Below are positions 8,403 to 35,759 of a DNA stretch of 49,637 bases, piece after piece. The notes beneath the pieces were generated by a model. That model was not told where the DNA came from. It did not search any database and saw only the letters and a program-made list of their open reading frames with translations. Both the position numbers and the translations under genes were made by a program. Source of the stretch: a bacterium (GTDB taxonomy: Bacteria; Oederibacteriota; CAKKQC01); the NCBI GenBank assembly GCA_919901855.1, contig CAKKQC010000018.1:12358-61994 (forward strand), written 5' to 3'. Positions within the stretch are counted from its first letter, which is position 1. The number at the start of each line of letters is the position of its first letter.

Positions 8403-9782
8403 CTACCGGACGGTGTTGGCGAACTTCTCCACCATCGCGCGGACGGCGGTGGCGACTTCCCTCTGGCTGGACAACTGCTGGGCCTGGTCCGAGAAGACGA
8501 TCCGCCCGGTCTCCACATCGACCGCCCTCAGGCTCAGGACGTAGGCGTCCATCAGCTTGCCGAAACTCCCAACGACCATGAGCTTCACGTTCAGGAGCTT
8601 GCCCAGCTTGACCGCGCATTCGGCGCTGGTGCAGCCCGTCTGCTGGAAGGCCTGCTCCGCGAGCACCTTGTCCATGTTCGCCTTCTCGACGACGTTGAAG
8701 GCGGGCTTCGACACGAGGTCGTTCCGGACCATGTCCGCGATGACGGCGGCGTCGCTGGCCGACACGCCCTGGGGCGTGAGCTCCGAAACGGCGACATTGA
8801 TCCGGATGGCCGGCGTCACGGCCGGCGCGGGCGCCGGCTGGGGCGTCGCCTCCGGCGCGGGGGGCGCCACCGCCATCTCGGCCGCCGACCGGCCGAACCC
8901 GTACGAGAAGCTCATCCGGTGGTTGAGCCCGATCACGTTGGTCACCGCCGCGTAGTCCAGCGAGACGCGGCCATAGACGACCGAGAAGCCGGCCGAGACC
9001 TGGAACCGGCCGTCCTGGTTCCTCTGTGCGCCGGCCCGCAGGCCTAACCGGTTCATGTACCACCATTCGGCGCCCAGCCCGGCGCGGTAGCCAAAGTCGA
9101 ACGGCTGGACGTACTCGGCTCCGACCAGCGCGCGCAGGCGCATCAGCCGGTATGCGAGGCCGAGCCGCGCTTCAGCCGGCAACATCTGGGCCTCGACGTC
9201 GCCCTGCGCCGGCCGCAGGCCGGGTCCGAGATTGCGGGCTGCTACCGCGACCCCGACCTCGCCCCACCGGCCCGTGGCCCCCACGTCGGCCGCCCCCGTC
9301 GTCGCCCGGTCCCCCGCGAGGTTGTCCGACACGCCCTTGACCAGCACGCCCGCCCTCAGCCAGGATCCACGCCAAGCGGCCACGACGCCGCCTGCGGTCA
9401 GCCCGCGGTCCAAGCTCGTCCCTATCTCGTCCCCGTTTGCGTTGACCTCGGCCATCCGGCTCGTGTACGTCACGGCCAGGGCCCCCACCGCCCAGCTCTG
9501 GTTGACGAGCCAGCCGGCGCCGACCCCCAGACCGTCGAGGTCGCCCCCGAACAGCGATCCGCCGGTCATCTGGACCGCGCCCCGCGTCGACTGGCCCGCG
9601 AGCAGGGCCGGATTACTCCAGGTCCGGAGGACGTCGGTGCTACCCACGCTCACCTGACCCATCCCGGCCTCCCGCACGCTCAGCGGCGCGTTCAGCAACA
9701 GGGCCCCCGTCATCGCCAGGGCCGGAGCGGAGAGGATAATCCAGCCTCCCGCCGCCGCGAGGACCCATCGCCGTCCGGTCAT
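8403..9782 (-). CDS. PorV/PorQ-like outer-membrane barrel fused to a CsgG/LpoB-like domain
   Basis: 459 residues. After a signal peptide come APLSVREAGMGQVSVGSTDV and TWSNPALLAG, the start signature of the PorV/PorQ (UPF0164-like) barrel family, then about 14 strands to residue 310. A Pro/Ala-rich linker (near 315-335) leads to a C-terminal domain (about 338-459) reading VAVSELTPQGVSASDAAVIA, FNVVEKANMDKVLAEQAFQQ, TGCTSAECAVKLGKLLNVKL. This is the CsgG/LpoB-like fold, with the paired-Cys GCTSAEC motif. The barrel should span the outer membrane and the tail should lie in the periplasm. ATG 9782 starts one base after the stop of the 1772-residue secreted protein, so the two are translationally coupled; I infer that the barrel serves that protein's export or anchoring. 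A close paralogue is at 24048-25475. Confidence 0.85.
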   Translation of the reverse strand: MTGRRWVLAAAGGWIILSAPALAMTGALLLNAPLSVREAGMGQVSVGSTDVLRTWSNPALLAGQSTRGAVQMTGGSLFGGDLDGLGVGAGWLVNQSWAVGALAVTYTSRMAEVNANGDEIGTSLDRGLTAGGVVAAWRGSWLRAGVLVKGVSDNLAGDRATTGAADVGATGRWGEVGVAVAARNLGPGLRPAQGDVEAQMLPAEARLGLAYRLMRLRALVGAEYVQPFDFGYRAGLGAEWWYMNRLGLRAGAQRNQDGRFQVSAGFSVVYGRVSLDYAAVTNVIGLNHRMSFSYGFGRSAAEMAVAPPAPEATPQPAPAPAVTPAIRINVAVSELTPQGVSASDAAVIADMVRNDLVSKPAFNVVEKANMDKVLAEQAFQQTGCTSAECAVKLGKLLNVKLMVVGSFGKLMDAYVLSLRAVDVETGRIVFSDQAQQLSSQREVATAVRAMVEKFANTVR

Positions 9783-9783
9783 G

Positions 9784-12700
9784 TCAGCGTTTCCTCTTCG
9801 ACACGATCATGAACTGCTTCCGGTCGCTGACTCCGCCGTCCCGGGCGAGCACCCAATAGAGGCCGTAGGCCAGATGCTTGCCGTGGTCGTCCCTGCCGTC
9901 GAGGTCCATGGCCGCGAGCCCGTCGCCGTCGAGATCGAGGTGCAGGGTCCGTACCAGCCGGACGCCCTCGTCAAAGATCTCGATGGTCACCCGTCCCCCG
10001 GCCTTCCCCCGCGCCGCGATCGAGAGCCGGCTCCCGGGGTCCGACCGATCCAGCACGTTGGGTCCGATCAGGATCGACTTCGGCTTGACCTTCACCAGGA
10101 GCGGTGGTGCCGGCGGCGCGGACGGGGGCGGCGCCAGAGATGACGGCGTCACGTAGGCCGCATGCACGGTGGACACAAAGGCAGACCCATCCCATCCGCC
10201 GACCGTGTAGATCGTGTTCCCGATCACGGCGGCCGCGAGCCCCTCGCACCCAGCCGGGAGGCTCGCCTTCGTCGTCCACGCATCCGCGGCCGGGTCGTAG
10301 GCTTCCACGGTGGACAGGACGCCGCCGTTCGAGCCTCCCATGGCGTAGATCGTGACATTCACGAAGACCACGGTCAGGCCGGACCGGGCGGTCGGCATGC
10401 TGGCCAGCGTCGTCCAACTGTCGGTGGCCGGGTCGTACACCTCCACGACGCCGGTGTCGCCCCCGTTGGCGCCGCCGATGGCGTAGATCCTGCCCCCGAC
10501 CACGACCGCGGACAGCCCCTCGCGCGCCGTCGGCATACCCGCCTTCGTCGTCCACGTGTTCGTCGCGGTGTCGTAGGCTTCCACGATCGTCAGGCCGCCG
10601 GTGCCGTTCTCCCCGCCGATCGCGTAGATCGTGCCCCCGATCACGACGGTGGCGAGATACTCTCGTGCCGTGGGCATGGCCGCTCTCGTGGTCCACGTGT
10701 TGGTCGCCGGATCGTAGGCTTCGACCACGGACAGGGCCCCGCCGCCCGCCCCGCCGCCGATCGCGTAGATCGTGCCCCCCACGGCCACAACGCCGAGGCC
10801 GTACCGCCCCGTGGGCAGGCTGGCCAGGGTCGCCCACGAGTCCGTGGCCGGGTCGTACGCCTCCGTCCTGGCATAGCCCGCCGCCCCGTCGTTCCCGCCG
10901 ACCACGTAGACCGTGCCGCCCACGACCGCGGTACCGGCATCCCGGCGCGCGGTCGGCATGGGCGCCTCCGGTGTCCAGAGCGGGTCCTGCGTGGCGACGA
11001 AGGTCCGGGTGGCCGACCCCTGGACCGCGACCGCCATCACGGCATCCGTGCCGGACGCGGTCGCGTTGAAGCCGACCATCCCGTTCCCCGACACGCTGTA
11101 CGTCCACGTGAACGTCGTCGAGCTCCCCGGGCCCAGCGTGACCGGTCCCGGAGGCAACGGCCCGGACTCGAGCACGACGAGACCGGCACCCGAAGTGAAT
11201 CCCATGGACGGCACCACGCCGTTCGCCGCGGCCGCCCCGGTATTCGAGATCGTCAGCCTCGCCGTGAACCACTGGCCCGTGCCGGCCGCCCCGGGGGCGA
11301 CGACGAGATTGGCCGTCAGCCGCGCGGCCGTCACCACGACGCCCGCCACGCGACGGCCCAGGATCGGCGAGCCCAGCATGGAGTCCATGCCGCCCGCCGT
11401 GACGGTAAAGCTCGCGACTCCACCGGCGGTGGCGGACAGGGTCCAAGCAAACGTCTGCGACGCGCCACCGTTCAGCGTGACCGGCCCCGCAGGCGTCGCC
11501 CCGCCTAGCACCACCAGCCCGGCCGGCGTGTTCACCTGCAACGCCGGCGTTACCCCGGTCGCGGCGTTCGACCCCGTGTTCGTGACCGTGAGCCAGGCTT
11601 GGATCCACTGCCCCGGGCTCACGACCGTGGACGACAACGAGAGAGACGTCGCGAGCCACGCCGACGGGGCAACCCGACGGACTCGGTGGCCGTCACGATC
11701 CGTGATGTAGAGGTTCCCGGATGCGTCCTGGTCAATTCCGGCAGGCAGATGCAGTAGCGCGGTGGTGGCGGGAATCCCGTCGCCGTTGTAGCCCTCGGTT
11801 CCGGTGCCTGCCGCAATGTAGATCAGCCCAGTGGCGGCATCCACCCTCCGAATCCGGTTCGCGAAATACTCCCCCACATAGAGGTTGCCGGCCGGGTCCA
11901 GATGAATGCCGCACGGAACATTCAACCCCGCAGTGGTGGCGGGAATCCCCTCGCCGTTGTACACCGTCGTCCCCGTCCCGGCCACCGTCGAGATCAGCCC
12001 GCTGACCGCATCCACCTTCCGGACGCGATGGTTCTGGCCGTCCGCAATGTAGAGGTTCCCCACGGCATCCAGGGCGACCCCGTTGGGCCAGTTGAGCTGC
12101 GCTGTGGTCGCGGCCACCCCATCGGTGTTGTACCCCCCCGTGCCCGTTCCGGCCACCGTCGAGATCAGCCCGCTCGCCAAGACCACCTTCCTGATGCGAT
12201 GGCTGGCATTGTCCGTAATGTAAAGGTTCCCCGAGAATATCGCGATGCCGCTCGGATACCTGAGCTGTGCGGCCGTCGCCAGGATCCCGTCCCCGTTGTA
12301 GCCATATGTTCCCGTCCCGGCCACCGTGGAGATCAACCCGGTGGTCGCGTCCACCTTCCGGATGCGATTGTTGTCGCGGTCCGCGATGAAGAGATTGCCC
12401 GCCGGGTCCAGGGCCACGCCATCGGTGCCCGACACGTTCGCGACGGTCGCGGAAATGCCGTCGCTGTTGTAGGCTCCCGTGCCCGTCCCGGCCACGGTCG
12501 AGATCAGCCCGCTGGCCACCGAGACTTTCCTGACACGATTGCCGAACCGCTCGGCGATGTAGCGGTTGCCGACCGAATCCACGGCGAAGCCCTCCGGTCC
12601 ATTGGTCTGTGCGGTCGTTGCGGGAATTCCGTCGCCGTTGTACCCCTTGCTGCCGGTGCCCGCCACCGTGGTGATGGTGCCACCCCAGGGATAGATCGAC

Positions 12701-15102
12701 GCACTCACCCGGGAGCCCAGGGTCGCCGTCGAAGAGGCCGTCACGCCTCCCATCACCGTCATCGTGAACGTCACGTTGCCGACGCCCACCGCGGAACACG
12801 TCCACGCGAACGTCACCCCGTCCCCGGGATTCAGCGTGACCGGCCCCGGTGGGACCGGCCCCGAGATCGGCCCCACCAGCCCCACGCCGGGGCCCGTCGC
12901 GAGTGCGGGCGTCACGTTCTGCGCCGCTTCCGCCCCCACGTTGGTGACCGTCATCGTGACCGTGATCCACTGGCCCCGCAGGGCCGGGCCGCTCACCTCC
13001 GTCGAGACGTCCATCACGCCGCCCCGGTAGGTCACGGCGTCCACCTCCGCGAAGTACGGCGTGACGAAATCGAAACCGCCGGCAACGTAGATCTTCCCGT
13101 TCAGTACCGCGCCGTAGGTGTCGATCCGGTCGGAGTAGAGGGACGCCTTGGTCGTCCACGTATTGGCGTTCGTGTCGTACTCCTCGACCGTCGGGTTGCG
13201 TCCGTCCCCCCCGATCACGTACACCCGGTCGTTCAGGGCGACCGCCACCGTGTCGGACCCGGCGGTCGGCATGTTCGTCAGCGTCCGCCATGAGCCCGCA
13301 TCCGGGTTGTATTCGTACGCGTATTGCGTGTTCCCGGCCACGTAGCCGCCGAACAGGTACATCTTCCCATTGACAGCGGTCCCGCTCGCGCATACGAAGT
13401 CCACCGGGGCGTCCGCCCTGGTGGCCCAGGTGTTCGCGGCAGGGTCGTATACCTCGACCTTCCGCGCCCCCCCCCGGCCGCCGATGACGTAGATCTTGCC
13501 CCCCACGACCGCTGACGCGCAGGCATCCCGGGCGGTCGGCATGCCCGCCCGGGTGGTCCAGGTGTTCGTCGCGGGATCGTAGGCCTCAACAACGGTTGTA
13601 TAGGGTGGGGTTTCCGAGCTCACCGTCCCCCCTCCGATGGCGTACAGCTTCCCGCCGACTGCTTCCGTCACCAGCCGCACACGCGCCGTAGGCATGCTCG
13701 CCTTCGTCGTCCACGTGTTCGAGGCGGGGTCGTAGGCCTCCACCGTTCCTAGGACGGCCGCGTCGGCTCCGCCGACGACGTAGAGCTTTCCGCTCAGACC
13801 GCAGACGCCGGGACTGACCCGGTCCGTCGGCATGTCGACCGCCCTGCCCCAGTCCAGGTCGCCGTCCGGGACGACGACCGGAGCGTACTTCCTCACCGCC
13901 CAGTTCTTGCCTTGGCCGGCCACGGCCTCGTACCCGACGACGACGATCGACCCGTCGGCGCCGTACGCAACCCCCCCGGCCGTGTCGTCCCCGTGCGCCG
14001 CACCATCGTATGTCATGGACCATTGCAGGACGCCTGCGGGGTTGTATCTGCGCACCAGCCAGTTCTTACCCTGTCCCAGGTCAGTCCTCGTCTCGTAACC
14101 GACGGCAACGATGGAGTTCTCCGCATCGACCGCGACATTGCGGTTACCCTCCAGCCCGTCGTCGCCGTTAGCCGGACTGTTGTAGGTGGCCAGCCACTGC
14201 GTCGCACCGGTGGCGCCGTATGTCTGGAGAAACCAGTTGCGGCTCTGCCCCAGGTCGCCGCGTATCTCAGAGCCGAGGCAGGCGATCGTCCCCGTCGAAT
14301 CGACCGCAACCCCCCCGTAGCCGTTCTCGTTGCCGGTCGACCGCGTCATGGTCCAGACCAGGTCACCGCCTGCCGTGTACTTCCTGACCGCCGAGATCAG
14401 TCCCGCGCCGCTCCAGTCGCCCACGTAGCCCGCCACGACGATATCCCCTGACGGATCGACCGCCACGCTCTGCGGATAGTCGTTGGAGCCATAGTTGTAT
14501 ACGTCGTGCCACACGATTGCGCCATCCAGTGGCGCGAACTTGATCACATGCCAGTCCCTGCCGGGGACGGCGGACATGCCCACCGCATAGACACTCCCGC
14601 TCGCGTCAACGGCGATATCGCAGGCGTTGTCCCAGCTGTTTCCGACGAGGTTACAGGTGACGCTCCACTGCAGGGTCCCCCCGGCATCCCACTTCATGAT
14701 CAACCAGTCGTAGGAATGCCCAATGTCGGACCGGTCGGAATTCGCCACGACGAAGATGTTCCCGCCGGCATCGATGGCGCTCCCGAGCCCATAGTCGCCG
14801 AAGTTTCCCGGTCCGTTGCTGCTTCGCGTCCACTGCAGGCTTCCGGCGGAATCGTACTTCCTGATAAGTATGTCGTTGCTGCGCCCGACGTCCGTGCGAT
14901 CCTCGGTGCCAACGACCACGATGCTCCCGTCGGGGGCGATGGCCACCCCGTTCGCCTGGTCGTCCAGGTTGCCGGGGCTGTTGTACGTTTGTTCCCAAGC
15001 CAGCGGGGGCGGCGGGGTGGCGGACGCGATACCGGCGACAAGAACCCCCAGCACGGTCGCGAGCGCCGCGAGGACGGGGAGCGGGGGCCGCCTTGTACTC
15101 AC
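9784..15102 (-). CDS. Giant secreted multi-propeller protein (SBBP, kelch, CARDB, NHL) with C-terminal sorting-like domain
   Basis: 1772 residues. A signal peptide (about 1-28) is followed by SBBP-type beta-propeller repeats (about 33-410; repeating D-LGQG-x-NW and G-x-I-VVVGYE units). Next come kelch propeller 1 (about 425-690; VEAYDPASNTWTTKASMPTA) and a CARDB/Ig domain (693-800). Then six NHL repeats (808-1147; GNLYIADGQNHRVRKV, ISTVAGTGTGGYNTDG), two more CARDB domains (1150-1365) and kelch propeller 2 (about 1374-1647) follow. The end is a FlgD-like beta-sandwich (1665-1772) closing YGLYWVLARDGG and KQFMIVSKRKR. The start is GTG 15102, 9 bases after TATAAT; longer frames upstream overlap the DinG gene. 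It is probably a surface adhesin or glycan-binding scaffold. The next gene encodes its PorV-like partner. Confidence 0.9.
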   Translation of the reverse strand: MSTRRPPLPVLAALATVLGVLVAGIASATPPPPLAWEQTYNSPGNLDDQANGVAIAPDGSIVVVGTEDRTDVGRSNDILIRKYDSAGSLQWTRSSNGPGNFGDYGLGSAIDAGGNIFVVANSDRSDIGHSYDWLIMKWDAGGTLQWSVTCNLVGNSWDNACDIAVDASGSVYAVGMSAVPGRDWHVIKFAPLDGAIVWHDVYNYGSNDYPQSVAVDPSGDIVVAGYVGDWSGAGLISAVRKYTAGGDLVWTMTRSTGNENGYGGVAVDSTGTIACLGSEIRGDLGQSRNWFLQTYGATGATQWLATYNSPANGDDGLEGNRNVAVDAENSIVAVGYETRTDLGQGKNWLVRRYNPAGVLQWSMTYDGAAHGDDTAGGVAYGADGSIVVVGYEAVAGQGKNWAVRKYAPVVVPDGDLDWGRAVDMPTDRVSPGVCGLSGKLYVVGGADAAVLGTVEAYDPASNTWTTKASMPTARVRLVTEAVGGKLYAIGGGTVSSETPPYTTVVEAYDPATNTWTTRAGMPTARDACASAVVGGKIYVIGGRGGARKVEVYDPAANTWATRADAPVDFVCASGTAVNGKMYLFGGYVAGNTQYAYEYNPDAGSWRTLTNMPTAGSDTVAVALNDRVYVIGGDGRNPTVEEYDTNANTWTTKASLYSDRIDTYGAVLNGKIYVAGGFDFVTPYFAEVDAVTYRGGVMDVSTEVSGPALRGQWITVTMTVTNVGAEAAQNVTPALATGPGVGLVGPISGPVPPGPVTLNPGDGVTFAWTCSAVGVGNVTFTMTVMGGVTASSTATLGSRVSASIYPWGGTITTVAGTGSKGYNGDGIPATTAQTNGPEGFAVDSVGNRYIAERFGNRVRKVSVASGLISTVAGTGTGAYNSDGISATVANVSGTDGVALDPAGNLFIADRDNNRIRKVDATTGLISTVAGTGTYGYNGDGILATAAQLRYPSGIAIFSGNLYITDNASHRIRKVVLASGLISTVAGTGTGGYNTDGVAATTAQLNWPNGVALDAVGNLYIADGQNHRVRKVDAVSGLISTVAGTGTTVYNGEGIPATTAGLNVPCGIHLDPAGNLYVGEYFANRIRRVDAATGLIYIAAGTGTEGYNGDGIPATTALLHLPAGIDQDASGNLYITDRDGHRVRRVAPSAWLATSLSLSSTVVSPGQWIQAWLTVTNTGSNAATGVTPALQVNTPAGLVVLGGATPAGPVTLNGGASQTFAWTLSATAGGVASFTVTAGGMDSMLGSPILGRRVAGVVVTAARLTANLVVAPGAAGTGQWFTARLTISNTGAAAANGVVPSMGFTSGAGLVVLESGPLPPGPVTLGPGSSTTFTWTYSVSGNGMVGFNATASGTDAVMAVAVQGSATRTFVATQDPLWTPEAPMPTARRDAGTAVVGGTVYVVGGNDGAAGYARTEAYDPATDSWATLASLPTGRYGLGVVAVGGTIYAIGGGAGGGALSVVEAYDPATNTWTTRAAMPTAREYLATVVIGGTIYAIGGENGTGGLTIVEAYDTATNTWTTKAGMPTAREGLSAVVVGGRIYAIGGANGGDTGVVEVYDPATDSWTTLASMPTARSGLTVVFVNVTIYAMGGSNGGVLSTVEAYDPAADAWTTKASLPAGCEGLAAAVIGNTIYTVGGWDGSAFVSTVHAAYVTPSSLAPPPSAPPAPPLLVKVKPKSILIGPNVLDRSDPGSRLSIAARGKAGGRVTIEIFDEGVRLVRTLHLDLDGDGLAAMDLDGRDDHGKHLAYGLYWVLARDGGVSDRKQFMIVSKRKR

Positions 15103-15111
15103 AGCTTCCGC

Positions 15112-19181: not shown

Positions 19182-19205
19182 GTCGTTCCCCCCTCCCCGC
19201 CGCAC

Positions 19206-25475: not shown

Positions 25476-26397
25476 CCCCGCCCGTCCCCCAGACCAGCGC
25501 GAACCGGTGGCTGGTCACGAGGTCGCCGAACGGCTGGTACGCGTAGTCGATCCCGAGCCGGCCGAGCCGGACCCCCAGCCCGGCCGTGAGCCCCGTGAGG
25601 CCCCGGAGGCCCGGCTGGGCGCCCCGCCACTTGTACCCGGCCCGGACCGCGAACATCCGGTGCGGCGCGATCTCGACGCCGGCCGCCACGAGCGGCTGGC
25701 GGCTCACGAGCGGGTAGCCCGCGTCGGCCACGATCCGCCCGAAGCCGGGCAGGGCGTACGCCGCCCCCGCCTTGACCACGGCCGGAAGCGAGAACCCGTC
25801 CCGGCCGGGTCCCACGTGCTGGGCCGCCCACGCCACCGTGAGCCCTCCGCCCGCGGGGAGCACGGACCCGGCGCTTAACCCGACCAACGAGCCGCCTGCG
25901 GTCTCCTGCACGACCTCGACGCCGAGGCCGGACCAGCCGCCGCCGCCGAGCCATCCGGGATTCGCGAACCCGTAGGACACCGTTCCCGCGACGTCCATGA
26001 CGGAATCGGTCCCGAGTTTCGTCCCGTCGTCCGAGCGCCGGTCATAGCTGCCGAACATGAGCGCCGTGATCCCCAGCCCGACGGTGCCCGGGCCCGCCGG
26101 GATCGCGACCGCGGCGTAGCTCAGCCCGACATCCGCCCCGGCGACATCGTGCGCCACCACCGCGCGGAGTTCGTGAATCTGGCCCAGCCCCCCGGGATTC
26201 CACGTGACCGCGGAGGCGTCGTCGGCCACCGCCGTGAACGCCTCCCCCATCCCGACCGGGCGCGCCCCGGCCCCGACGGATACGAAGGCCGCCTGGACCC
26301 GGCTCGCGCCGGTACGAACCGCTTCCGCCAGCACGCTCCCCCGCGCGACGGAGGCGCCCATGAGGACCGCCGCGATGATGCTCCCGGCCGTACTCAC
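25468..26397 (-). CDS. PorV/PorQ (UPF0164-type) outer-membrane barrel, 309 aa
   Basis: This is the most canonical member here. FVSVGAGARPVGMGEAFTAV, ADDASAVTWNPGGLG is the classic opening of PorV/UPF0164 proteins, and the remainder alternates hydrophobic strands and turns up to the final SHRFALVWGTGGAI. There is no C-terminal extra domain. Start GTG 26397 overlaps the stop of the 109-residue coiled-coil gene (GTGA), so it is the last gene of an operon with the 1662-residue secreted protein. PorV proteins act as outer-membrane shuttles for C-terminal-domain cargo in type IX secretion; whether this one does is inferred from context. Confidence 0.88.
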   Translation of the reverse strand: MSTAGSIIAAVLMGASVARGSVLAEAVRTGASRVQAAFVSVGAGARPVGMGEAFTAVADDASAVTWNPGGLGQIHELRAVVAHDVAGADVGLSYAAVAIPAGPGTVGLGITALMFGSYDRRSDDGTKLGTDSVMDVAGTVSYGFANPGWLGGGGWSGLGVEVVQETAGGSLVGLSAGSVLPAGGGLTVAWAAQHVGPGRDGFSLPAVVKAGAAYALPGFGRIVADAGYPLVSRQPLVAAGVEIAPHRMFAVRAGYKWRGAQPGLRGLTGLTAGLGVRLGRLGIDYAYQPFGDLVTSHRFALVWGTGGAI

Positions 26398-26723
26398 AGT
26401 CTGCCCTTGCTGATCGCCCGGGCGAGGCGCAGGTCGAGCCGCTCGAGCCCCGCGAGCTCCCGCCGCCGGTCGTCCAGCCGCCCCTGCCACTGGCGGCGCT
26501 CGGTCTCGTTCCGCGCCTTCCCCATCGCCTCCTCGATCCCCCGGATCTGCCCGCGCAGGGCGTCCATCCGTTCGTGCACCGCCCGCCGCCGTTGCACAAG
26601 CACCTTGCGCGGCACGCGGTCGCGCGCCTGCGACTCACCCGGCGGGTTCGCTGGGGGACCCGCGAGAACGGACCCGGGCGCGAGCGTCAGGAACATGAGC
26701 GGGATCATCAGGAGCCTTCTCAT
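26394..26723 (-). CDS. Small exported coiled-coil protein, 109 aa
   Basis: A signal peptide (LLMIPLMFLTLAPGSVLAG) is followed by about 75 strongly charged residues (RRAVHERMDALRGQIRGIEE, then RRELAGLERLDLRLARAI) that should form a helix or coiled coil in the periplasm. No family is recognised. It is placed between the secreted protein (ATGA overlap) and the PorV-like gene (GTGA overlap) with no spare bases. Such a tight position suggests a part of the same export or anchoring unit, perhaps a spacer or chaperone; this is inference. Confidence 0.75.
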   Translation of the reverse strand: MRRLLMIPLMFLTLAPGSVLAGPPANPPGESQARDRVPRKVLVQRRRAVHERMDALRGQIRGIEEAMGKARNETERRQWQGRLDDRRRELAGLERLDLRLARAISKGRL

Positions 26724-29700
26724 CGTTTCACCATCACTTTCGCCAGCGGCATCTTCTGATCACGGCCGTCCGCGAGCTTCACCCGGACCCGGATGACATA
26801 GGGCCCCGGGGCCCACCGGCGGACGCCGTCGATCACGACCGCCCCGTCGGACTGCGTCACGGACTTCCAGGTGCCGCGGAACACGGACTCGAACGACGCG
26901 TTGAACGCCTCCACCGTGACCTCGTCGGCGTCCCCGTCGAGCCGGAGCGCGACGTTCAGCCGGTCGGTCGAGACCGGGTTCGGATAGACGACCACGGGAT
27001 CTTCGAACCGGGACGCGATCGCGACCGTCCCCGTCGCCTGCGTCGAAACGGACGCGGAGTCGCCCGCGTCGGTACCCGTCGCCTCCGCCGTGAGCGCGAG
27101 CGTACCGCCCTGACGGGCGGTCACCTGCCAGACGAACGTCACCGCCGCTCCGCCGGCGACGGTTACGCCCCCGGCGGGCGTCGGACCCGCCGCCACGGAC
27201 GCCATCCCCGGATCCGCGAACGTGAGCGCGGGCGTCACCCCGGTCGCGTTGTTCAGCCCCGTGTTCGAGACCGTGAGGCGTACTTCGACCGTCTCGCCCG
27301 TCTTCACCGCAGTGGGGGTCACGACGAGGAAGGACCGGAGCGCGGCGCCGGCCGTGACCGTGACCGTCCAGCAGGCGGCCACCGACGAAACCGGTGCCCC
27401 CGAGTTCGCGTCGGCCCCGGCGACGGTCGCCGAAAAGCTCAGGACCGCCGGCTGAACGGCCTCGTAGGTCCAGGTGAACGCGGACCAGCCGCCGCCCGGA
27501 ACGGTCAAGGGGCCCGCCGGGGACGGCCCCGAGAGCCTGGCGACCGCCGCCGCCGGCAGGGGTCCCGGCTCCGTCGAGGGCGTCACCCCCAACGCCGATG
27601 CCCCTCCGGCATTCGCGACGAAGACCGTGACCGTGATGACCTGGCCCTGCTTGAGCACGCCGGGCCACGCCGCCATCCCCGCGACCATGTTCGCGGGCGT
27701 CTGCACGAGTCCCGCGGTCGAGGCCGCCGCCGCGAGGGCCGCGGCGGTGCCGGAATCCGTACCCGTCGCGGTCACGCTGTAGACGCCCGCGCCCGCCGCC
27801 GCTCCCGTGAACGTCCACGTGACGGTCACGGTCACCCCGGCAGGCAGCGTGAACGGCCCGGCCGGGGAGGGCCCGGAGGCCCACGCCACGACCCCCGGAC
27901 AGAGGATCGTGGCCGAGACGCCCGTGGCGGCCACGTCGCCCGCGTTCCTGATGACCGCCTGCACGGCCTGCAACTGCCCCACGCTCACCGTGGCCGGAAC
28001 GGCGGCGCACGACAGCACGGTCAGGCGCGCGGGCTCCTGCACGGTCAGCGGAGCCACCGCCCCCGCGACCGTCGCCCCGAAGAGGGCGTCGGTCCCCGCT
28101 GCCGTCGCGATGAAGTCCGTCCACCCGCGCCCGGATGCGCTGTAGGTCCAGACGAACGTCTGGCTTGCGCCGGGGGCGAGGGCCAAGGGCCCTGCGGGCA
28201 CGGGGCCGAGCTTCCACGGCACCGCCGCCGTCGTCCCGGGGTCCAGCCCCAATGCGACGCCCACGCCGGACGCCGTCGACCCGCCGGTGTTGGAGACGGT
28301 GCAACGCACCTCGAACCACTCGCCCACGAACGCGGTCGAGGAGCCCGCGGCGGTCACCACCGACATCGCCGCCGCGAGGCTCGCGGGCACCGCGGCCTGA
28401 ATCCCCACGATCGCTCCCGAGGCAATCGCCCCGCCGAGCCCGGAATCCGTGCCCGTCGCCGTGGAGGCTAACGAGATCACCCCCGCGCCCGTCACGCTGT
28501 AGGTCCAGCCGAACGTCCACGAGGCGCCGGCCGGGATCGAAAGCGGGCCCGGAGGCGAGGGGCCGGACCGCCAGTCCACGAGCGACGCGCCGCTGCCGAC
28601 CGCGAGGGTGGCCGAGACGTTCGTGGCGGCCACCTGCCCCGTGTTCGTCACGGTCAGGACCACGCTCACGAGCGTCCCCACCTTCGCGGGCGAGGGACCG
28701 ACCGACACGGCCGCGGCAAGCGCGGCCGGCCGCAGGAGCGGGACCGCCCTGCCGGCGGACACGGCCACCGTCCCCAGCACGGCGTCCACCCCGGTCGCCG
28801 TCGCCGTGAACGTCGCGGCCCCGGCGCCCGTTATCCCGTACGCCCAGCCGAACACGGTCGCACTCCCGGCCAGGATCGTGAGCGGCCCCGCTGGCACCGG
28901 GCCGGCGATGTACGAAACCAGCCCGCCCCCCGGCCCGACCGCGAGCGACGGCACGACGAGGGTCGCGTCCGCGCTTCCCGTGTTCGAAACGGTCAGGGTC
29001 ACGATCAGGAGCGAACCCACGTACCCGGTCGCGGGCGAGACCGCCATGGCCGAGACGAGCCGGGAGACGGGCACGCTGGCGAGCGGCGCGGTCGCCGCCA
29101 CCAGAATGCCACCGCCTGTCCCGGCGTTGGTGCCCGACGCCGTCCCCGTGAACTCGATCACGGCGGCCCCCGTCACGCTGTAGGTCCACGTGAACTTCTG
29201 CGATCCGCCTCCCGACGCGAGCGTGACGGGCCCCCCCGGCAAAGGGCCGGTCCGGTACGCGACGGCCGACCCGCCCGCGTTGATCTGGAGGGCCGGCATC
29301 ACGCCCGTCGCGTTCGCGGTCCCCGTGTTCGTCACGCTCAGGACAACCTGCACCGTGACGCCTATCGAGGCCGGGTTCGGCGTGACCGCGAGCGCCCCGC
29401 TCAACAGCGCCGATCCGGCCCCGCCTTCCGTGTATTTGAGCAGCCTGGCGTTCCCGCCGCCCCTCCCGGCAACGTAGATGGAGCCCAGGGCGACGGCCCT
29501 CCCGATGTCGTCCACGCTGCCGCTGTCATACGTGGGTTGCGGCGACCATCGCAGGTTGCCCGAGGAGTCGTAGGAAACGGTCACGAAATCGCCGACGACG
29601 CCGTTCATCATGTCCACGGTTCCGACCACCCCGGCGGCGAAGACGTTCCCGAAGCCGTCCACGTTGAGACCCCGGAAGTACGCGTTCTGCCCGCCGTTGA

Positions 29701-31708
29701 ACGACTTGCTCCACAGGGTCGTCCCGTTCGAGTCGAGCTTGTACACCCACCCGCTGAGCGCGGTAAAGAGCGGGTCCACCTGCGCGCCGCAGAAGTACAC
29801 GTTGGCGCCGGCCACCTTGAGGTCGAATCCGAAGAAGCTGACCGGGCCGCTCCCGTACGTCTTGGTCCAGAGGAGGCTCCCGGACGAGTCGAACTTGAGG
29901 AGCGCGATCCGGTTGTCGACGTCGGCCGGATCGTCGTTCGGCGTGGTCTCGAGAACGAAGATGCCGCCGGACCCGTCGACCGCCACGCCATCCGCGATGT
30001 CGTCCACCGTGTAGTTGATCGTCCGGCTCCAGACGACATTGCCCAAGGGATCGAACTTGACGAGGAGGAGGTCCGGCTCCCAGTATGTCCCCGTCATGGC
30101 CGACGCCGCCAGGTACACGTTGCCCCCGGCGTCCACCGCGACCGGTCCCGGTATCACGCTCGAAAAGGGCTTGAACACGAACTCCCGGGTAAGGACCCCA
30201 CCCGAGTCGTACTTGAGAACCTCGACGTCATCCTCGTAGAACGTCGAGGTCAGGTCGAGGCCCGCGACGGACAGGTATGAGTCGGCTCCCTGCTGGAAGA
30301 AGCCCCTCCCGTAGTTGGAACAGTGCGTTGCCGGCCCCGCCAGCGAAGCGGACTGAAGTCCTCCGCTCGAGTCGTACTTGAGGAGCCGGGGAACCCTCCC
30401 GCTCATGCCGCCCACGACGATGTTGCCGCTCCCGTCGGGGCCGGCGCCGAACACATCTTCATCGGCGGGGACATCATAGCCGCCGGACCAGGAGACGCCG
30501 CTGCCGGACGAGTACCGCGTGATGCTGACGGGCCGGGACGTTTCGCACATCTGCCACCCAGGCTGGGTGACCAGGTAGCCGTTCCCGGCCGCGTCCGCCC
30601 CCACTCCCAGCGTGTTCGCCCAGCTCCCGCCCATGGAAACGGTCACCGGCCAGCCGGCGGCCATGCCGAGCGCCGGGTCGAACCTGGCGAGGAACCAGTA
30701 CGTGCTGGGGATAGCGTACGCAAAGCCGCCGACGTAGACGCCGCCCGAGCCGTCCACGGCCATCGCCAGCACGTTGTGCCCATCGCCGTTGGCATAGAGG
30801 CCGCTCGCGACCAGGTCGCCCGTCGCCCCGTCGACGAGAAGAACCAGGACATCCGAGAAGGACGTTCCGGCCACGTACAACGATCCCGCGAACCAGGCCG
30901 CGGCGCTCCCGTACTGGTAGGACCATCCGTTCGAGTTCAGCGTCCGGCTGAAGAGCACCGTCCCCCCCGCGTTGAACTTGGTGACGAGGACGTCGTTCCT
31001 GAAGTAGGCGGGATCGGCCACGTCGCCGGCGAGGAACGCGTTCCCGGCCCCGTCGCTCGCGATCCCGATCCGGCCAAACCAGGTCTTGTCGGGCCCCGCC
31101 GTCCGCGACCACTGCACGGTTCCCGCCGCCGCCGCCAGCTTCACGATCGCCCCGGTTCCGGTCTGGGACCACGGAGGGCCGTTGTCCCTCTTCACCCGGT
31201 AACCGCTCACCCACACGCCGGTCCCGTCGGTCGCGATCGCGGACGCCTCGAAAGTGACGCCGGCCCCTCCATACACCGACCTCGTCCACAGCGGCGATCC
31301 GGCCGCCGATCCGTACTTGGCGACGTAGAGCACGGAATTGCCCGTCATCCCGTCGTAGGCCTGACCCGCCAGGTAGCAGTTACCGGATCCGTCCACGGTG
31401 ATCGCGTAGATCGTCGGCCACTCCGGATCGTCCATGACCGCGTTCTGGACCATCGTCCCGGCGGACGTGTACTTCAGGAGCCTCTGGTCGTCGTTGGCAC
31501 TCACCGCGAGCCACGTCGTTCCGGCGGCGTCCGTGAAACTGGCGCCGAGATAGCCGTTCCCGCCACTGGTCCGGCTCCACCCCTGCGCCCAGTCGAGAAC
31601 GGGAGCAGCCGCGGCCACCCGCGAAGCCGCGAGGAATCCGAGCATGACCGCGGGCGCCATCCAGCGGGCATGGCTCGGTCGCGGGGCGGGGCGATCCTTC
31701 GTCAGCAT
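26720..31708 (-). CDS. Giant secreted protein: SBBP-type propeller plus seven CARDB/Ig domains and C-terminal sorting-like domain
   Basis: 1662 residues if started at ATG 31708. The N-terminus (MLTKDRPAPRPSHARWMAPA, then VMLGFLAASRVAAAAPV) is a signal peptide with a charged front. Residues about 36-760 are beta-propeller-like units (G-N-x-YLAG, LLVKFDPLGNVVWSRT). Then come seven repeats of about 110 residues (760-1566), each opening A-V-x-P-x-x-x-x-VG, with VTNTG-x-A-x-A-GV, and G-P-x-P-x-GP-L/VTL-x-G, and ending A-TGTD. A C-terminal FlgD-like domain (about 1567-1662) ends YVIRVRVKLADGRDQK and KVMVKR. The start is uncertain: GATAAT overlaps the ATG, so a leadered start at ATG 31660 is possible. 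Likely a surface adhesin or filament. It overlaps the next gene by ATGA. Confidence 0.87.
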   Translation of the reverse strand: MLTKDRPAPRPSHARWMAPAVMLGFLAASRVAAAAPVLDWAQGWSRTSGGNGYLGASFTDAAGTTWLAVSANDDQRLLKYTSAGTMVQNAVMDDPEWPTIYAITVDGSGNCYLAGQAYDGMTGNSVLYVAKYGSAAGSPLWTRSVYGGAGVTFEASAIATDGTGVWVSGYRVKRDNGPPWSQTGTGAIVKLAAAAGTVQWSRTAGPDKTWFGRIGIASDGAGNAFLAGDVADPAYFRNDVLVTKFNAGGTVLFSRTLNSNGWSYQYGSAAAWFAGSLYVAGTSFSDVLVLLVDGATGDLVASGLYANGDGHNVLAMAVDGSGGVYVGGFAYAIPSTYWFLARFDPALGMAAGWPVTVSMGGSWANTLGVGADAAGNGYLVTQPGWQMCETSRPVSITRYSSGSGVSWSGGYDVPADEDVFGAGPDGSGNIVVGGMSGRVPRLLKYDSSGGLQSASLAGPATHCSNYGRGFFQQGADSYLSVAGLDLTSTFYEDDVEVLKYDSGGVLTREFVFKPFSSVIPGPVAVDAGGNVYLAASAMTGTYWEPDLLLVKFDPLGNVVWSRTINYTVDDIADGVAVDGSGGIFVLETTPNDDPADVDNRIALLKFDSSGSLLWTKTYGSGPVSFFGFDLKVAGANVYFCGAQVDPLFTALSGWVYKLDSNGTTLWSKSFNGGQNAYFRGLNVDGFGNVFAAGVVGTVDMMNGVVGDFVTVSYDSSGNLRWSPQPTYDSGSVDDIGRAVALGSIYVAGRGGGNARLLKYTEGGAGSALLSGALAVTPNPASIGVTVQVVLSVTNTGTANATGVMPALQINAGGSAVAYRTGPLPGGPVTLASGGGSQKFTWTYSVTGAAVIEFTGTASGTNAGTGGGILVAATAPLASVPVSRLVSAMAVSPATGYVGSLLIVTLTVSNTGSADATLVVPSLAVGPGGGLVSYIAGPVPAGPLTILAGSATVFGWAYGITGAGAATFTATATGVDAVLGTVAVSAGRAVPLLRPAALAAAVSVGPSPAKVGTLVSVVLTVTNTGQVAATNVSATLAVGSGASLVDWRSGPSPPGPLSIPAGASWTFGWTYSVTGAGVISLASTATGTDSGLGGAIASGAIVGIQAAVPASLAAAMSVVTAAGSSTAFVGEWFEVRCTVSNTGGSTASGVGVALGLDPGTTAAVPWKLGPVPAGPLALAPGASQTFVWTYSASGRGWTDFIATAAGTDALFGATVAGAVAPLTVQEPARLTVLSCAAVPATVSVGQLQAVQAVIRNAGDVAATGVSATILCPGVVAWASGPSPAGPFTLPAGVTVTVTWTFTGAAAGAGVYSVTATGTDSGTAAALAAAASTAGLVQTPANMVAGMAAWPGVLKQGQVITVTVFVANAGGASALGVTPSTEPGPLPAAAVARLSGPSPAGPLTVPGGGWSAFTWTYEAVQPAVLSFSATVAGADANSGAPVSSVAACWTVTVTAGAALRSFLVVTPTAVKTGETVEVRLTVSNTGLNNATGVTPALTFADPGMASVAAGPTPAGGVTVAGGAAVTFVWQVTARQGGTLALTAEATGTDAGDSASVSTQATGTVAIASRFEDPVVVYPNPVSTDRLNVALRLDGDADEVTVEAFNASFESVFRGTWKSVTQSDGAVVIDGVRRWAPGPYVIRVRVKLADGRDQKMPLAKVMVKR

Positions 31709-31788
31709 TATCAGACGACCAATGCCACTTGGAATACCAGAGCCACGTCTGGAAGTCAATGCCGCCCCGGCCCGATACCCGCAACTGG

Positions 31789-31794: not shown

Positions 31795-31800
31795 TTCGGC

Positions 31801-32514
31801 ATGCAGGGAGACAGAAGCATGCACTGGAGCCGGCGGGCTCTTTTCGGAGTCGTGCTGGCGGCGGGGCTGGCGGCGCCGGCGGCGCAGGCGTTCCCGCACA
31901 TCGAGGCGGCGCTGGCGGTGGAGCCGTCGGTGGCGAGCGTCGGAATGACCGTGAACGTCACGCTCTCGATCACGAACACGGGCGGGGACCCGATGACGCT
32001 CGTGAACCCCTTCCTGTCCATCACCGCCGGCGACAACCTCGTGTCGATTGTGTCCAACCCGTGGCAGAGCGCGTCCGCGTACCTGGGGCCGGGCATCGCC
32101 CTGAGCTACACCTGGACCCTCATCGTGCTGGCGCAGGGAACGGTCAACCTGACCGGGTGGGCCGCCGGCTACGTCAACGGAAACCCCACGTCCTTCACGT
32201 CCACGGCGATCCTGGTCATCCCCGGCCCCTCGTCGCCCCCGATCCGGATCCTGAACAACCGGCTGCGGCCCGGGAAGACGGCGACGGTCGTCCTGCATGG
32301 CTCGCCGGGGAAGGCGGTGACGCTCGTCGTCCACGATCAGGCGGGGCGGCCGCTTGGACCGATCGGGTTGGGCGCCGTCGGGCTCGACGCCGCCGGGAAC
32401 GGCTCGTTCCGGTTCGACGGCACGGTGGCCGGAAACCGGCTGGCTACCGGCGTGTACTGGATCGTGGCCTCCGGGGCGGTCTCGGCCAAGGCGCCCGTCA
32501 TGGTCACCAAGTGA
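31801..32514 (+). CDS. Secreted CARDB-domain protein with C-terminal sorting-like domain, 237 aa
   Basis: Signal peptide RRALFGVVLAAGLAAPAAQA is followed by one CARDB/Ig-like domain (about 35-140: LAVEPSVASVGMTVNVTLSI, TNTGGDPMTLVNP). Next is a FlgD-like beta-sandwich (about 145-237), which ends YWIVASGAVSAKAPVMVTK. The protein is thus the two terminal modules of the giant neighbours without their propellers. The start is the ATG at 31801; a second ATG at residue 7 is possible. Its stop overlaps the ATG of the PorV-like gene (TGATG). Probable role: surface component exported by that partner; function unproven. Confidence 0.85.
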   Translation: MQGDRSMHWSRRALFGVVLAAGLAAPAAQAFPHIEAALAVEPSVASVGMTVNVTLSITNTGGDPMTLVNPFLSITAGDNLVSIVSNPWQSASAYLGPGIALSYTWTLIVLAQGTVNLTGWAAGYVNGNPTSFTSTAILVIPGPSSPPIRILNNRLRPGKTATVVLHGSPGKAVTLVVHDQAGRPLGPIGLGAVGLDAAGNGSFRFDGTVAGNRLATGVYWIVASGAVSAKAPVMVTK

Positions 32515-33494
32515 TGGGGCGACCGTTCGCAGCGCTGCTCCTGTTCGTGCTCACGGCGGGGTCGGCGGCCGCCGGGACAGGGATGGCGGCGGCGGGGATT
32601 CCGCTAAGCGCCCGGCAGCAGGCAAGCGGCGGAATCTACGGAGACCCGGACGTGCTGGGCGTCGCCGCGAACCCGGCGCAGCTCTCGACCCAGCTCCGCC
32701 GGCTCGAGGTCGGCGTGGTGGATCAGTACCTGTTCGGGTCGGCCGAGAACGTGCTGGGGCTGGGGATCGGGGGCGTGACGGGGTCGGCGGATGCCTGGGC
32801 CTGGGGGGCGGCGGCGGTGGTGTCGCAGGTCTCGACCCGGGGATTCAGGATCGTGGACGAGATCGGGGACGAGACCGGGGAGCGCGTGGAGCCGGTGGCG
32901 CGACGGGCGGACCTCGCCGTGTCCTGCCAGCGCGGCCGGCTCGCGGGGGGAATCGCGTTCGGGGCCGCCGCGGAATCGTACGGGAGCCTTGGCGACGGGG
33001 GCGGCAGCGGGCCGTCGATGATTCAGGCGGCGGCCGGGATGCTGGTCGCGTTCGACACCTGGCACGCCGGCGCCGCGATCCGGCTGGGGCTGAGCGATAC
33101 TCCCAGGGGGGCCGGCGGCGCGGATTCCGTGAACCTCGGGGGAGCTGCGGACGCCGGAGGGCTCCGCCTGACGGGGAGCCTGGTGGTTCCGCTCGCGGGC
33201 CCGGCGGGGCCCGACGCGCAGGCGGGAGTTCGCTGGATGGTGTCGGGGGCCTTCGACCTGCGCGCGGCGTACGCGACGGCGTTCACGAAGGGCGTCGGCG
33301 CGGCGGCGGGGAGCTCGGTGCGGGCGGGGGTGTCGTTCCGGTCGGACAAGGGGATGGGCATGGACTACACGCTCGTGGTGCCGCTCGAAGGGGGCCTGGG
33401 AGTCACCAACCTGATCGGCGCCCGCTGGACCTTCGGAGACCGTTCCCGGCGCACCCCGCCGCAGTTGCAGCGCCAGCCCCAGTTCGGCAGTTGA
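32514..33494 (+). CDS. PorV-like outer-membrane barrel, GGIYGD subfamily, 326 aa
   Basis: A signal peptide (FAALLLFVLTAGSAAAG) precedes AAAGIPLSARQQASGGIYGD, PDVLGVAANPAQLS, which aligns by eye with the opening of the 24048-25475 protein (VREQAAGGIYGD, SNPALLG). The remainder is a barrel-like series of strands ending DYTLVVPLEGGLGVTNLIGA, RWTFGDRSRR. The short Pro/Gln-rich tail has no CsgG/LpoB-like domain. It overlaps the upstream secreted CARDB gene by one base, so the pair is translationally coupled. Confidence 0.83.
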   Translation: MGRPFAALLLFVLTAGSAAAGTGMAAAGIPLSARQQASGGIYGDPDVLGVAANPAQLSTQLRRLEVGVVDQYLFGSAENVLGLGIGGVTGSADAWAWGAAAVVSQVSTRGFRIVDEIGDETGERVEPVARRADLAVSCQRGRLAGGIAFGAAAESYGSLGDGGGSGPSMIQAAAGMLVAFDTWHAGAAIRLGLSDTPRGAGGADSVNLGGAADAGGLRLTGSLVVPLAGPAGPDAQAGVRWMVSGAFDLRAAYATAFTKGVGAAAGSSVRAGVSFRSDKGMGMDYTLVVPLEGGLGVTNLIGARWTFGDRSRRTPPQLQRQPQFGS

Positions 33495-33508
33495 AGCCCG
33501 ACAGTTGG

Positions 33509-33514
33509 TAGGAT
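33509..33514 (+). promoter_or_regulatory. Candidate -10 element of the two small membrane-protein genes
   Basis: TAGGAT, nine bases before ATG 33524 and 15 bases past the PorV-like gene stop, so the small genes may have their own promoter. Confidence 0.45.
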
Positions 33515-33523
33515 GAAAGTGCC

Positions 33524-33766: not shown

Positions 33767-33771
33767 GGATC

Positions 33772-33879
33772 ATGGAGTACGTCCTGCTGATGGGCCTCAT
33801 GGTACTCGGGATCTTCCTGATCGCCTACGCCATCGACAAGGTGGCGTGGTTCGGGAAGCGCTCGAAGGGAGCCCACTAG
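33772..33879 (+). CDS. Tiny single-span membrane protein, 35 aa
   Basis: The product is one membrane helix: MEYVLLMGLMVLGIFLIAYA, then IDKVAWFGKRSKGAH, with a basic tail on the inside. A clear GGAGG lies 8 bases before ATG 33772, only 5 bases after the stop of the 80-aa gene, so the pair is co-expressed. It is short enough to be missed by standard gene finding. Function unknown; it may assist the larger membrane protein. Confidence 0.6.
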   Translation: MEYVLLMGLMVLGIFLIAYAIDKVAWFGKRSKGAH

Positions 33880-33900
33880 TCCGGGCCCGTGACCGAAGAT

Positions 33901-33917
33901 GCGGCGCATTCCGCCGC
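33901..33917. terminator. Weak hairpin between convergent genes
   Basis: GCGGCG (33901-33906) pairs with CGCCGC (33912-33917) around CATTC in the gap between two convergent operons. No T tract is present, so this is tentative. Confidence 0.25.
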
Positions 33918-33942
33918 CGCTGGAGCGCCGACCGCTCCCCCG

Positions 33943-35250
33943 CTACTCCTTCCGGATGCGCTCCACCCACTTCTGGAGGTCGGGGTTGCTGGGGTTGAGC
34001 TCCAGGCACTTGCCGTAGGCGGCGAGGGCGGCGGGCTTGTCCTTGAGGCCGTAGTAGGCGTTGCCGAGCAGGCCCCAGCACTTCCAGTTGCCGGGGTCGC
34101 GCGCGACGACGGCTTCCAGCCGCGTCTTCGCTTCCGCGTAGCGGCCGGCCTTGTTCGCGGCTTTCGCGGCCGCGTACTCGGCATCGACCTCGGCGGCGGA
34201 CATCGGGGCCAACGGCTTGGGTGTCGCCGCCGGCACCTTGGGCGGCGCCTTCGGTGACGGCGGAAGCGCCGGAGCCACGGGAGCCTTGGAAGCGGCCGGC
34301 TTGAGGTCCAAGGGCACGGCCCCTGACGCCGCGGTCTTCGGGCGCTCCGGCTGCAGGGCCGCTCCGAACAGGTACGAGAGCGCGACGCGATGGGAGCCGC
34401 CGAGCAGGTGGGAGGCGTAGGCGTAGTCGACTCCCATCCCGCTGAAGACCGCCGAGAGGCCCAGGGTCACCTGGAGCTGGCCGGGCTGAAGGCCCGAGAA
34501 CCCGGCGCGGACGGCGAAGGTCTCCGCGGGCCACCACTGCACCCCGCACCCGATCCGGCCGTCGCGGCCGTCCACCTTCGAGTACCCGGCGCCGCAGGTG
34601 AGCCGGTTGCGCGCGCCGGTCCAGCTCGCGCCCAGCCGCGTCTCGCTCGCGAGATGGTCCGGCCGCACGACGGGGTCGGAGCCGGTGAGCGCGGGCCCGC
34701 CGGCGTTCCGGACCGATAGCCCGGCCCGGATGCCGTCAACGAGCGCCTCGATCCCGGCATCGACCCCGGCGGCGCTCGCGCTGCCGTCGCCGGCCCGGTC
34801 GGAAACCGTCTTGACCGTGAGCCCCGCGGCGAGGGGGTCGGCGGCGCGGAACGCGAAGGCGAGGCCGCCCGCCCAGACGCTGCGGCCGATCGAGGTTCCG
34901 GCCGGCTCCCCCGTCTCGTCGATGACCTTCGTGTCCGAGGAGTAGCCGGAGACGAGCCCGGCCAGCGCGACGCCGGGGAGGACCATCCAGCTCGCCGCGA
35001 GCCCAAAAGTGGTCTGATCGCCCGCGAAGAGCGACGCGCCACCGAGCCCCACGGCGCCGCGGCTCTCCTGAAACCCGAGCACGGCGGGATTGCTCCAGGC
35101 GCACAAGACGTCGCCCGCCCCCTCGACGATCCCGCCCATGCCGGCCTGCCGGACGCTCAGGGGCTGGTTTACGAAGGCCCCGCTGGTCGGCGCGGACGCG
35201 CCGGCGAGGCCCGCCGCGACGCACGCGACCAGGACGAGCACGATTCGCAC
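33943..35250 (-). CDS. PorV/PorQ-like barrel with C-terminal TPR domain, 435 aa
   Basis: Signal peptide VRIVLVLVACVAAGLAGASA leads to NQPLSVRQAGMGGIVEGAGD, WSNPAVLGFQESRG, close in pattern to the protein at 8403-9782. The barrel runs to about residue 320. A Pro/Lys/Ala linker follows, then a TPR-type helical tail (about 370-435): AKAANKAGRYAEAKTRLEAV, NWKCWGLLGNAYYGLKDKPA, LELNPSNPDLQKWVERI. The tail would be periplasmic and bind a partner. GTG 35250 overlaps the preceding stop (TAGTG), so it is coupled to the secreted gene upstream. The same barrel type carries a CsgG/LpoB-like tail at other loci, so the tail seems interchangeable. Confidence 0.85.
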   Translation of the reverse strand: MRIVLVLVACVAAGLAGASAPTSGAFVNQPLSVRQAGMGGIVEGAGDVLCAWSNPAVLGFQESRGAVGLGGASLFAGDQTTFGLAASWMVLPGVALAGLVSGYSSDTKVIDETGEPAGTSIGRSVWAGGLAFAFRAADPLAAGLTVKTVSDRAGDGSASAAGVDAGIEALVDGIRAGLSVRNAGGPALTGSDPVVRPDHLASETRLGASWTGARNRLTCGAGYSKVDGRDGRIGCGVQWWPAETFAVRAGFSGLQPGQLQVTLGLSAVFSGMGVDYAYASHLLGGSHRVALSYLFGAALQPERPKTAASGAVPLDLKPAASKAPVAPALPPSPKAPPKVPAATPKPLAPMSAAEVDAEYAAAKAANKAGRYAEAKTRLEAVVARDPGNWKCWGLLGNAYYGLKDKPAALAAYGKCLELNPSNPDLQKWVERIRKE

Positions 35251-35759
35251 TACTTCGTCACCTTGCGTGCGATCACGAAGGAGGCGATGTCGGCGACGCC
35301 GCCGCCGGACGCGGCGACGCGGTAGCGGCCGGCGCCCAGCTCGCGGCCGGGGATGAACGCGGCGTCCGCCTCGACGACGCCGAAGCCATAGGCGTCGAGC
35401 GCGATCCCGACCGTCCCCGCGTGCTCGCCCGCCTCGTCGTAGACCGTGAGGGTCGCGGTGCCACCGGCGGTGCCGCGCACGTAGAACCGGAGCCTGCCGC
35501 CGCGGCGCGTCTGGTCGAGGACATTGGGGGCGATGCGCAGCTCCCCCGGCTTGAGCTTGGCCTTGACGGCCTCGATCAGGACGGACGGGGGGGCGGCGGG
35601 GAGGAGAACACGGGCGACGTGCCGGCCCCCCGGCGCCGCCGGGGCGGAAGCCGCGTAGACCGTGGTCGAGAGGGCGCTGGCGGCGTCGACGGAGCTCACG
35701 CCCGCTAGCAGGCATGCCATTGAAAGCCCGGCCGGGATGAATGCACGAGGCTGGCTCAC
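35250..35759 (-). CDS. Secreted protein consisting of a sorting-like beta-sandwich, 169 aa
   Basis: Signal peptide FIPAGLSMACLLAGVSSVDA is followed by a short Pro/Ala-rich stretch and a FlgD-like beta-sandwich (about residues 70-169; ELRIAPNVLDQTRRGGRLRF, LGAGRYRVAASGGG, SFVIARKVTK). The phrase APNVLD parallels GPNVLDRSD in the 1772-residue protein. It is the C-terminal domain alone, without propellers. GTG 35759 follows TATATT by seven bases. Coupled to the PorV-TPR gene (TAGTG). It could be a surface subunit or the minimal carrier of the pathway. Confidence 0.8.
   Translation of the reverse strand: MSQPRAFIPAGLSMACLLAGVSSVDAASALSTTVYAASAPAAPGGRHVARVLLPAAPPSVLIEAVKAKLKPGELRIAPNVLDQTRRGGRLRFYVRGTAGGTATLTVYDEAGEHAGTVGIALDAYGFGVVEADAAFIPGRELGAGRYRVAASGGGVADIASFVIARKVTK

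Follow-up and report, generated by a model that had tools for sequence, protein, structure and literature searches.

Cargo genes coupled to PorV-type barrel genes in a member of the Oederibacteriota: a probable type IX-like secretion system with cognate shuttles

In the type IX secretion system (T9SS), a single PorV barrel serves as the shuttle of all type A C-terminal domains (CTDs) (PMC12618676), and reviews restrict both the system and its CTDs to the Bacteroidota (PMC10202324; PMC7463736). A stretch of 49,637 nucleotides from a member of the candidate phylum Oederibacteriota (assembly GCA_919901855.1, contig CAKKQC010000018.1; G000:C18:12358-61994, hereafter the window) raises the question of why genes for secreted proteins should be coupled there, in five modules, to genes for PorV-like barrels. 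The genome (4.68 Mb, 91 contigs, 93% complete) also carries a gene for the SprA translocon, and the answer that we favour, with a probability of roughly two in three, is a T9SS-like SprA/PorV/CTD system in which most cargos would have a cognate PorV-type shuttle; we infer the binding, its specificity, the anchoring and the permanence of the complex.

The modules of the window, in which the secreted proteins are termed cargos, comprise the following genes:

8403..9782, minus strand: barrel A, predicted 14-stranded PorV-like barrel, extended at its C terminus by an LpoB/TolB_N/CsgG-like periplasmic domain (NF033709 E 1e-15; CsgG/LpoB Pfam matches)
9784..15102, minus strand: cargo A, SBBP/delta-60 repeats, Kelch and NHL propeller, FlgD-like CTD
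22786..24051, plus strand: cargo B, Kelch propeller and CTD
24048..25475, plus strand: barrel B, divergent PorV-like barrel with a CsgG/LpoB-like domain
25468..26397, minus strand: barrel C, PorV/PorQ-family barrel without extension (NF033709 E 6e-24, 85.3 bits against a cut-off of 90)
26394..26723, minus strand: small secreted helical (coiled-coil) protein of 109 aa, its gene lying between those of cargo and barrel (matches Metal_resist weakly, E 0.019)
26720..31708, minus strand: cargo C, SBBP-like propeller, repeated CARDB/DUF11 domains, WAPGxY-class CTD
31801..32514, plus strand: cargo D, short, a single DUF11-like domain and CTD (residues 143-237)
32514..33494, plus strand: barrel D, divergent PorV-like barrel
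33943..35250, minus strand: barrel E, PorV-like barrel with a C-terminal TPR (NF033709 E 1e-15; TPR Pfam match)
35250..35759, minus strand: cargo E2, small secreted protein, most of its length being the CTD
35799..39176, minus strand: cargo E1, 1125 aa, SBBP/delta-60 repeats and a divergent CTD, upstream of E2 in the same operon

All five cargo-barrel loci described in an earlier note on this DNA are present; their junctions were read and the same genes were called by a gene finder trained on codon use. In module A the end of the cargo stop codon (9784) and the barrel start (9782) lie one base apart, whilst in module B the stop at 24051 and the ATG at 24048 form a 4-base overlap. Module C runs in the order cargo, 109-aa coiled-coil gene and barrel, joined by two 4-base overlaps (26723/26720 and 26397/26394); the small helical protein might be a chaperone for cargo or barrel. 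The junction of module D consists of a stop at 32512-32514 and a barrel ATG at 32514 (alternative GTG at 32511), and that of module E of a stop at 35250-35252 and a barrel GTG at 35250 (alternative later start at 35241). Module E had been described as one cargo and one barrel: the pair is there, and the larger CTD cargo upstream (35799-39176) makes it two cargos with one barrel.

Barrels A to E form one family by an iterated profile built on barrels of this genome (E 3e-38 to 2e-75), with a wide gap before the next protein; this profile was used because NF033709 alone misses divergent barrels, window barrels B and D among others. Searched against the PDB, a profile from 33 barrels matches PorV of Flavobacterium johnsoniae (6H3I) with E 1e-16 and whole-barrel coverage. 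The AlphaFold2 model of barrel A (predicted local distance difference test score, pLDDT, 92) shows 14 long strands together with helices at the N terminus and an alpha/beta domain set apart, and its closest PDB folds are the PorV chains 8GL6 (Z 34.0, 278 residues) and 6H3I (Z 33.5), followed by FadL, TodX and CymD (Z 28-31); its C-terminal domain has TolB_N and LpoB as fold matches. By profile and model, the window barrels are PorV-type, with a predicted 14-stranded FadL-type fold closest to PorV, which bears out the earlier view of them as PorV/PorQ-like on both counts, including the structural check on which that view had been made to depend. Curated family models gave a more mixed result in the NCBIfam search: barrels A, C and E match PorV_fam/PorQ models, all below the NCBI curated cut-offs, B and D match neither, and no PorP model is among the matches of the five. 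The PorV equivalog NF033710 (curated cut-off 250 bits) scores barrels A and C at only 14 and 32 bits.

Domains fused to the barrel recur among 69 barrels of the genome (CsgG in 14 and LpoB in 13, TPR in 5, OmpA in 2). Some PorV-type barrels also seem to bear a C-terminal FlgD/CTD-like immunoglobulin-like (Ig-like) domain of their own (G000:C6:230131-232757, that is L185:3132-5758; L019:2743-4038 and 8428-9711), and on contig C6 two barrels with the apparent Ig domain stand in tandem after a single cargo.

The cargos of the window are built from Kelch, NHL, SBBP, CARDB and DUF11 repeats, followed by a terminal domain of about 90 residues. A profile of 22 such CTDs matches FlgD together with the CTDs of T9SS proteins, namely PorZ (E 2e-8), PorU (6e-5) and the gingipain RgpB (0.004). 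In the model of cargo D, the CTD (residues 143-237, pLDDT about 97) superposes on the PorU and PorZ CTDs with Z 9.4 each and root-mean-square deviations of 2.3-2.7; only the CTD half taken alone is informative, as the full model mainly retrieves transglutaminase and RbmA Ig pairs. Homology with the PorZ, PorU and RgpB CTDs, together with this model, indicates that the cargo CTDs are Ig-like beta-sandwiches of a type-A-like kind. A crude signal-peptide scan, which is not decisive, was positive for 39/64 cargos and 56/71 barrels versus 172/465 other genes.

Cargo-barrel pairing is a genome-wide design. The census was drawn from stretches fetched around profile matches, leaving out cargos with neither a recognisable CTD nor a barrel, and counted about 71 unique PorV/PorQ-family barrels and about 83 CTD genes; NF033709 alone (E <= 0.001) matches 55 times here and between 7 and 50 times per genome in 30 relatives. 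The very next gene on the same strand is a barrel for 59 of the 83 CTD genes, another 4 reach a barrel via a small gene or another cargo, and 62 of the 71 barrels are preceded by a CTD gene. Overlaps of 4 bases occur at 35/59 cargo-barrel junctions; among the remaining same-strand neighbours of the fetched stretches the figure is 105/539 (Fisher p 4e-10). On one short contig (G000:C81; L177:3021-4536), a cargo is followed by apparently just the N-terminal 92 aa of a barrel, either a broken pair or an assembly fault.

The paired genes also resemble each other in their divergence. Across 52 pairs, barrel and CTD distances are correlated with a Mantel r of 0.68, a value reached by 0 of 5000 shuffles, and with r 0.63 once close paralogs are removed. 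In rank Mantel tests, r is 0.43-0.45 between barrel and CTD, about 0.02 (not significant) between barrel and passenger, and about 0 between CTD and passenger. Compared segment by segment with the barrel, the last 100 residues of the cargo give r 0.34-0.35 (z 7-9), the preceding 50 residues 0.08 (not significant), and segments further upstream about 0.14 (z about 2). Since linkage predicts a gradual fall, the step seen at the domain edge points to functional matching with free exchange of passengers. Barrel class 1, moreover, pairs solely with CTD class 2. By these data, CTD and barrel have co-evolved.

The translocon to which such pairs would be delivered is encoded outside the window, by a single SprA gene (1951 aa) on contig 23. 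TIGR04189, used instead of PF14349 (SprA_N) because the latter had no match anywhere, controls included, scores it at 204.8 bits with in-frame neighbours (cut-off 200), and against the solved SprA (6H3I) the single sequence reaches E 8e-19 and a profile 8e-45. Its operon reads SprA, CTD cargo (709 aa) and PorV barrel, in the same order as in the sister genome. The earlier statement that the window has no SprA-like gene is therefore true of the window and not of the genome, and the dedicated display system suggested there is not separate from the type IX pathway, given one SprA with its own cargo-PorV pair. SprA matches were found in 28 of 31 genomes of the phylum, which include records labelled Goldiibacteriota, FCPU426 and Firestonebacteria, and also in Elusimicrobia; the nearest named relative is a metagenome-assembled genome labelled Candidatus Coatesbacteria (nzgw597; SprA 65% identical). 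Peptidase_C25 (PorU-type, PF01364) has no match in this genome, although 3/21 phylum genomes do match, which indicates that the model works in this phylum.

In the sister genome, a member of the same family, a CTD gene precedes 22 of 28 barrels, and two further pairs have a small gene in the gap (113 and 96 aa; L247, L262), as in module C. The order CTD cargo, PorV-type barrel was also noticed near the SprA loci of records labelled Elusimicrobia and Aerophobetes (L108, L109, L135, L147, L149, L151); in named genomes, pairing was viewed only near SprA, the query. Pairing may extend past this phylum.

Several results weigh against a system of cognate shuttles. No barrel lies near 20 of the 83 CTD genes, so the claim of the earlier note that each cargo has its own barrel holds for the 59 directly paired and fails for these orphans, several of which have a CTD of the same subfamily as a paired cargo; 9 of the 71 barrels, in turn, have no CTD cargo, one of them at a contig edge. 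The co-occurrence of cargo and barrel across relatives, named beforehand as a test that could refute the claim, bears it out only by half: it is evident in the sister genome, whereas of 39 barrels sampled from the phylum's other families (a sample leaning to high-scoring ones) 17 sit beside a CTD cargo, usually at wider spacing. Co-duplication of neighbouring genes accounts for part of the barrel-CTD correlation. TIGR04183, part of the proposed model search alongside the barrel families, has no match to the window cargos at E 0.1. Of the components that were to be sought in the rest of the genome, SprA was found, but PorL, PorM and PorN/GldN gave nothing above cut-off in 21 genomes including this one, and PorK/GldK gave weak matches far below cut-off, here as in control genomes, these PorK/L/M/N searches having been run without a T9SS-positive control genome. 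Some of the orphans speak for cognate shuttles: in four of them the CTD is 57-59% identical to the one of a single paired cargo, at C12:43194, as expected if a shuttle is shared. Another four, at G000:C40:119501-193285 (L168, L171, L172), share a CTD subfamily of their own (NGxYFIQI) to which no paired cargo belongs; none of them has a barrel nearby, and two sit in very long open frames of 6372 and 10753 codons.

Such orphans would also be expected if PorV-type barrels were interchangeable, the pairs having arisen by duplication of an ancestral cargo-PorV unit and linkage alone explaining the matching distances. The pair in the SprA operon could be that ancestor, and one PorV handles all type A CTDs in F. 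johnsoniae (PMC12618676). However, passengers have been reshuffled while the CTD-barrel match was kept, the correlation drops at the CTD edge and does not fade with distance, barrel class 1 occurs only with CTD class 2, and some 60 retained copies would require another reason; we therefore regard redundancy of the shuttles as unlikely. We give a distinctly smaller chance to the barrels being FadL-type uptake channels, with the propeller proteins as surface or periplasmic ligand-binding partners and the FlgD-like domain as a generic Ig fold. FadL, TodX and CymD are indeed the next fold matches, propellers are common among the passengers and the CTD profile matches FlgD too, but PorV outranks FadL in both profile and fold, the CTD profile selects PorZ, PorU and gingipain CTDs, and passenger type is unrelated to barrel type, which is unexpected if the passenger binds the barrel's ligand. 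One-to-one coupling of secreted-protein and barrel genes would also suit SprA-independent export, in which each barrel exports its own cargo as in two-partner secretion. With a modelled 14-stranded FadL/PorV fold bearing the N-terminal helices of that family, unlike Omp85/TpsB, with CTDs within the T9SS group and with a SprA gene present, this is the least probable explanation.

A cognate-shuttle system of this kind is best placed against three known arrangements. In the Bacteroidota T9SS, structures from F. johnsoniae show a CTD bound by PorV loops inside SprA and exiting with PorV (PMC10994853). Barrel family and fold (6H3I, 8GL6), the Ig-like CTD with its kinship to those of PorZ, PorU and gingipains, and SprA in the genome are shared with the PorV/type A branch of that system, whereas its single PorV is common to all substrates and here about 71 barrels are mostly cargo-paired, in another phylum and with PorL/PorM/PorN and a PorU-type peptidase not found in this genome. 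Type B substrates, by contrast, exit on cognate SprF/PorP barrels that afterwards anchor them (PMC12618676; PMC9143113), working in Porphyromonas gingivalis with the TPR-bearing PorE (PMC9143113). There too the shuttle gene lies directly downstream of the cargo, and the four orphans akin to the C12:43194 cargo resemble the three orphan substrates of F. johnsoniae that use one common shuttle (PMC12618676); cargo specificity and anchoring on the barrel are proposed likewise here. Unlike SprF/PorP, the present barrels match PorV/PorQ and not PorP models, the CTDs are of the FlgD/type-A-like kind, the periplasmic domains form part of the barrel protein itself, and about 60 pairs compare with 9 adjacent pairs in F. 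johnsoniae. In the attachment complex of P. gingivalis, PorU-PorV and PorZ-PorQ likewise each combine a PorV/PorQ barrel with a protein that retains its CTD and remains attached to that barrel (PMC10202324), but as two fixed machinery pairs rather than a genome-wide repertoire with variable passengers. The earlier contrast between private barrels here and a shared PorV elsewhere thus stands for PorV-type barrel, CTD type and scale, and has to be qualified by the cargo-specific SprF/PorP shuttles of type B CTDs. In the open-licence literature searched, no description was found of PorV-type barrels dedicated to Ig-like CTDs, of PorV paralogs or of an Elusimicrobia PorV of this kind; within it, PorV-type dedicated partners of Ig-like CTDs, their scale, the fusion of periplasmic domains to them and their occurrence in this phylum are new, dedicated shuttles being known in principle.

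The cargo would reach the periplasm by Sec. There, loops of the cognate PorV-type barrel, itself docked on the one SprA translocon, would catch the Ig-like CTD of the cargo, and both would leave SprA laterally together, as judged from the F. johnsoniae SprA-PorV-CTD structures. The barrel probably also retains the cargo as its surface anchor. That it most likely stays bound follows from the lack of a recognisable PorU-type peptidase in this genome that would cleave off the tail and free the shuttle for reuse; this lack, combined with gene coupling and wall-directed barrel fusions, favours a permanent anchor. Cargo and barrel would then be needed at about one to one, a supply that translational coupling of their genes would secure, and the fused LpoB/TolB_N-like, TPR and OmpA domains would link the anchor with the cell wall or supply it with a periplasmic partner.

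Two further features of the window were noted. At 17304-19205 lies a 633-aa protein with a signal-peptide-like start, a CsgG/LpoB-like middle and an outer-membrane-barrel-like end, without a CTD and with no convincing NCBIfam match. Two large overlapping genes at 43831-49637 resemble, as read from sequence only, a UvrD/RecB-like helicase-nuclease pair of the AddAB type.

SprA, PorV-type barrels and PorZ/PorU-like CTDs are found through a candidate phylum, and here the number of shuttles has grown along with that of the cargos. A fuller picture, offered tentatively and with more doubt than confidence, is that of a T9SS variant outside the Bacteroidota in which the shuttle is the anchor: some 60 cognate PorV-CTD pairs would match by a lock-and-key code at a single SprA, no sortase would take part, something other than PorL/PorM would supply the energy, and the surface proteome would consist of non-recycled cargo-barrel complexes tethered by fused periplasmic domains. 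The finding raises the question of what powers a SprA translocon in a genome without recognisable PorL/PorM. About 60 natural CTD-barrel pairs in one genome are also material from which the residues that determine CTD-shuttle specificity can be learned, and would allow a test of the proposal that cargos remain on PorV-like barrels if PorU does not cut (suggested in PMC10202324; PMC7323717).

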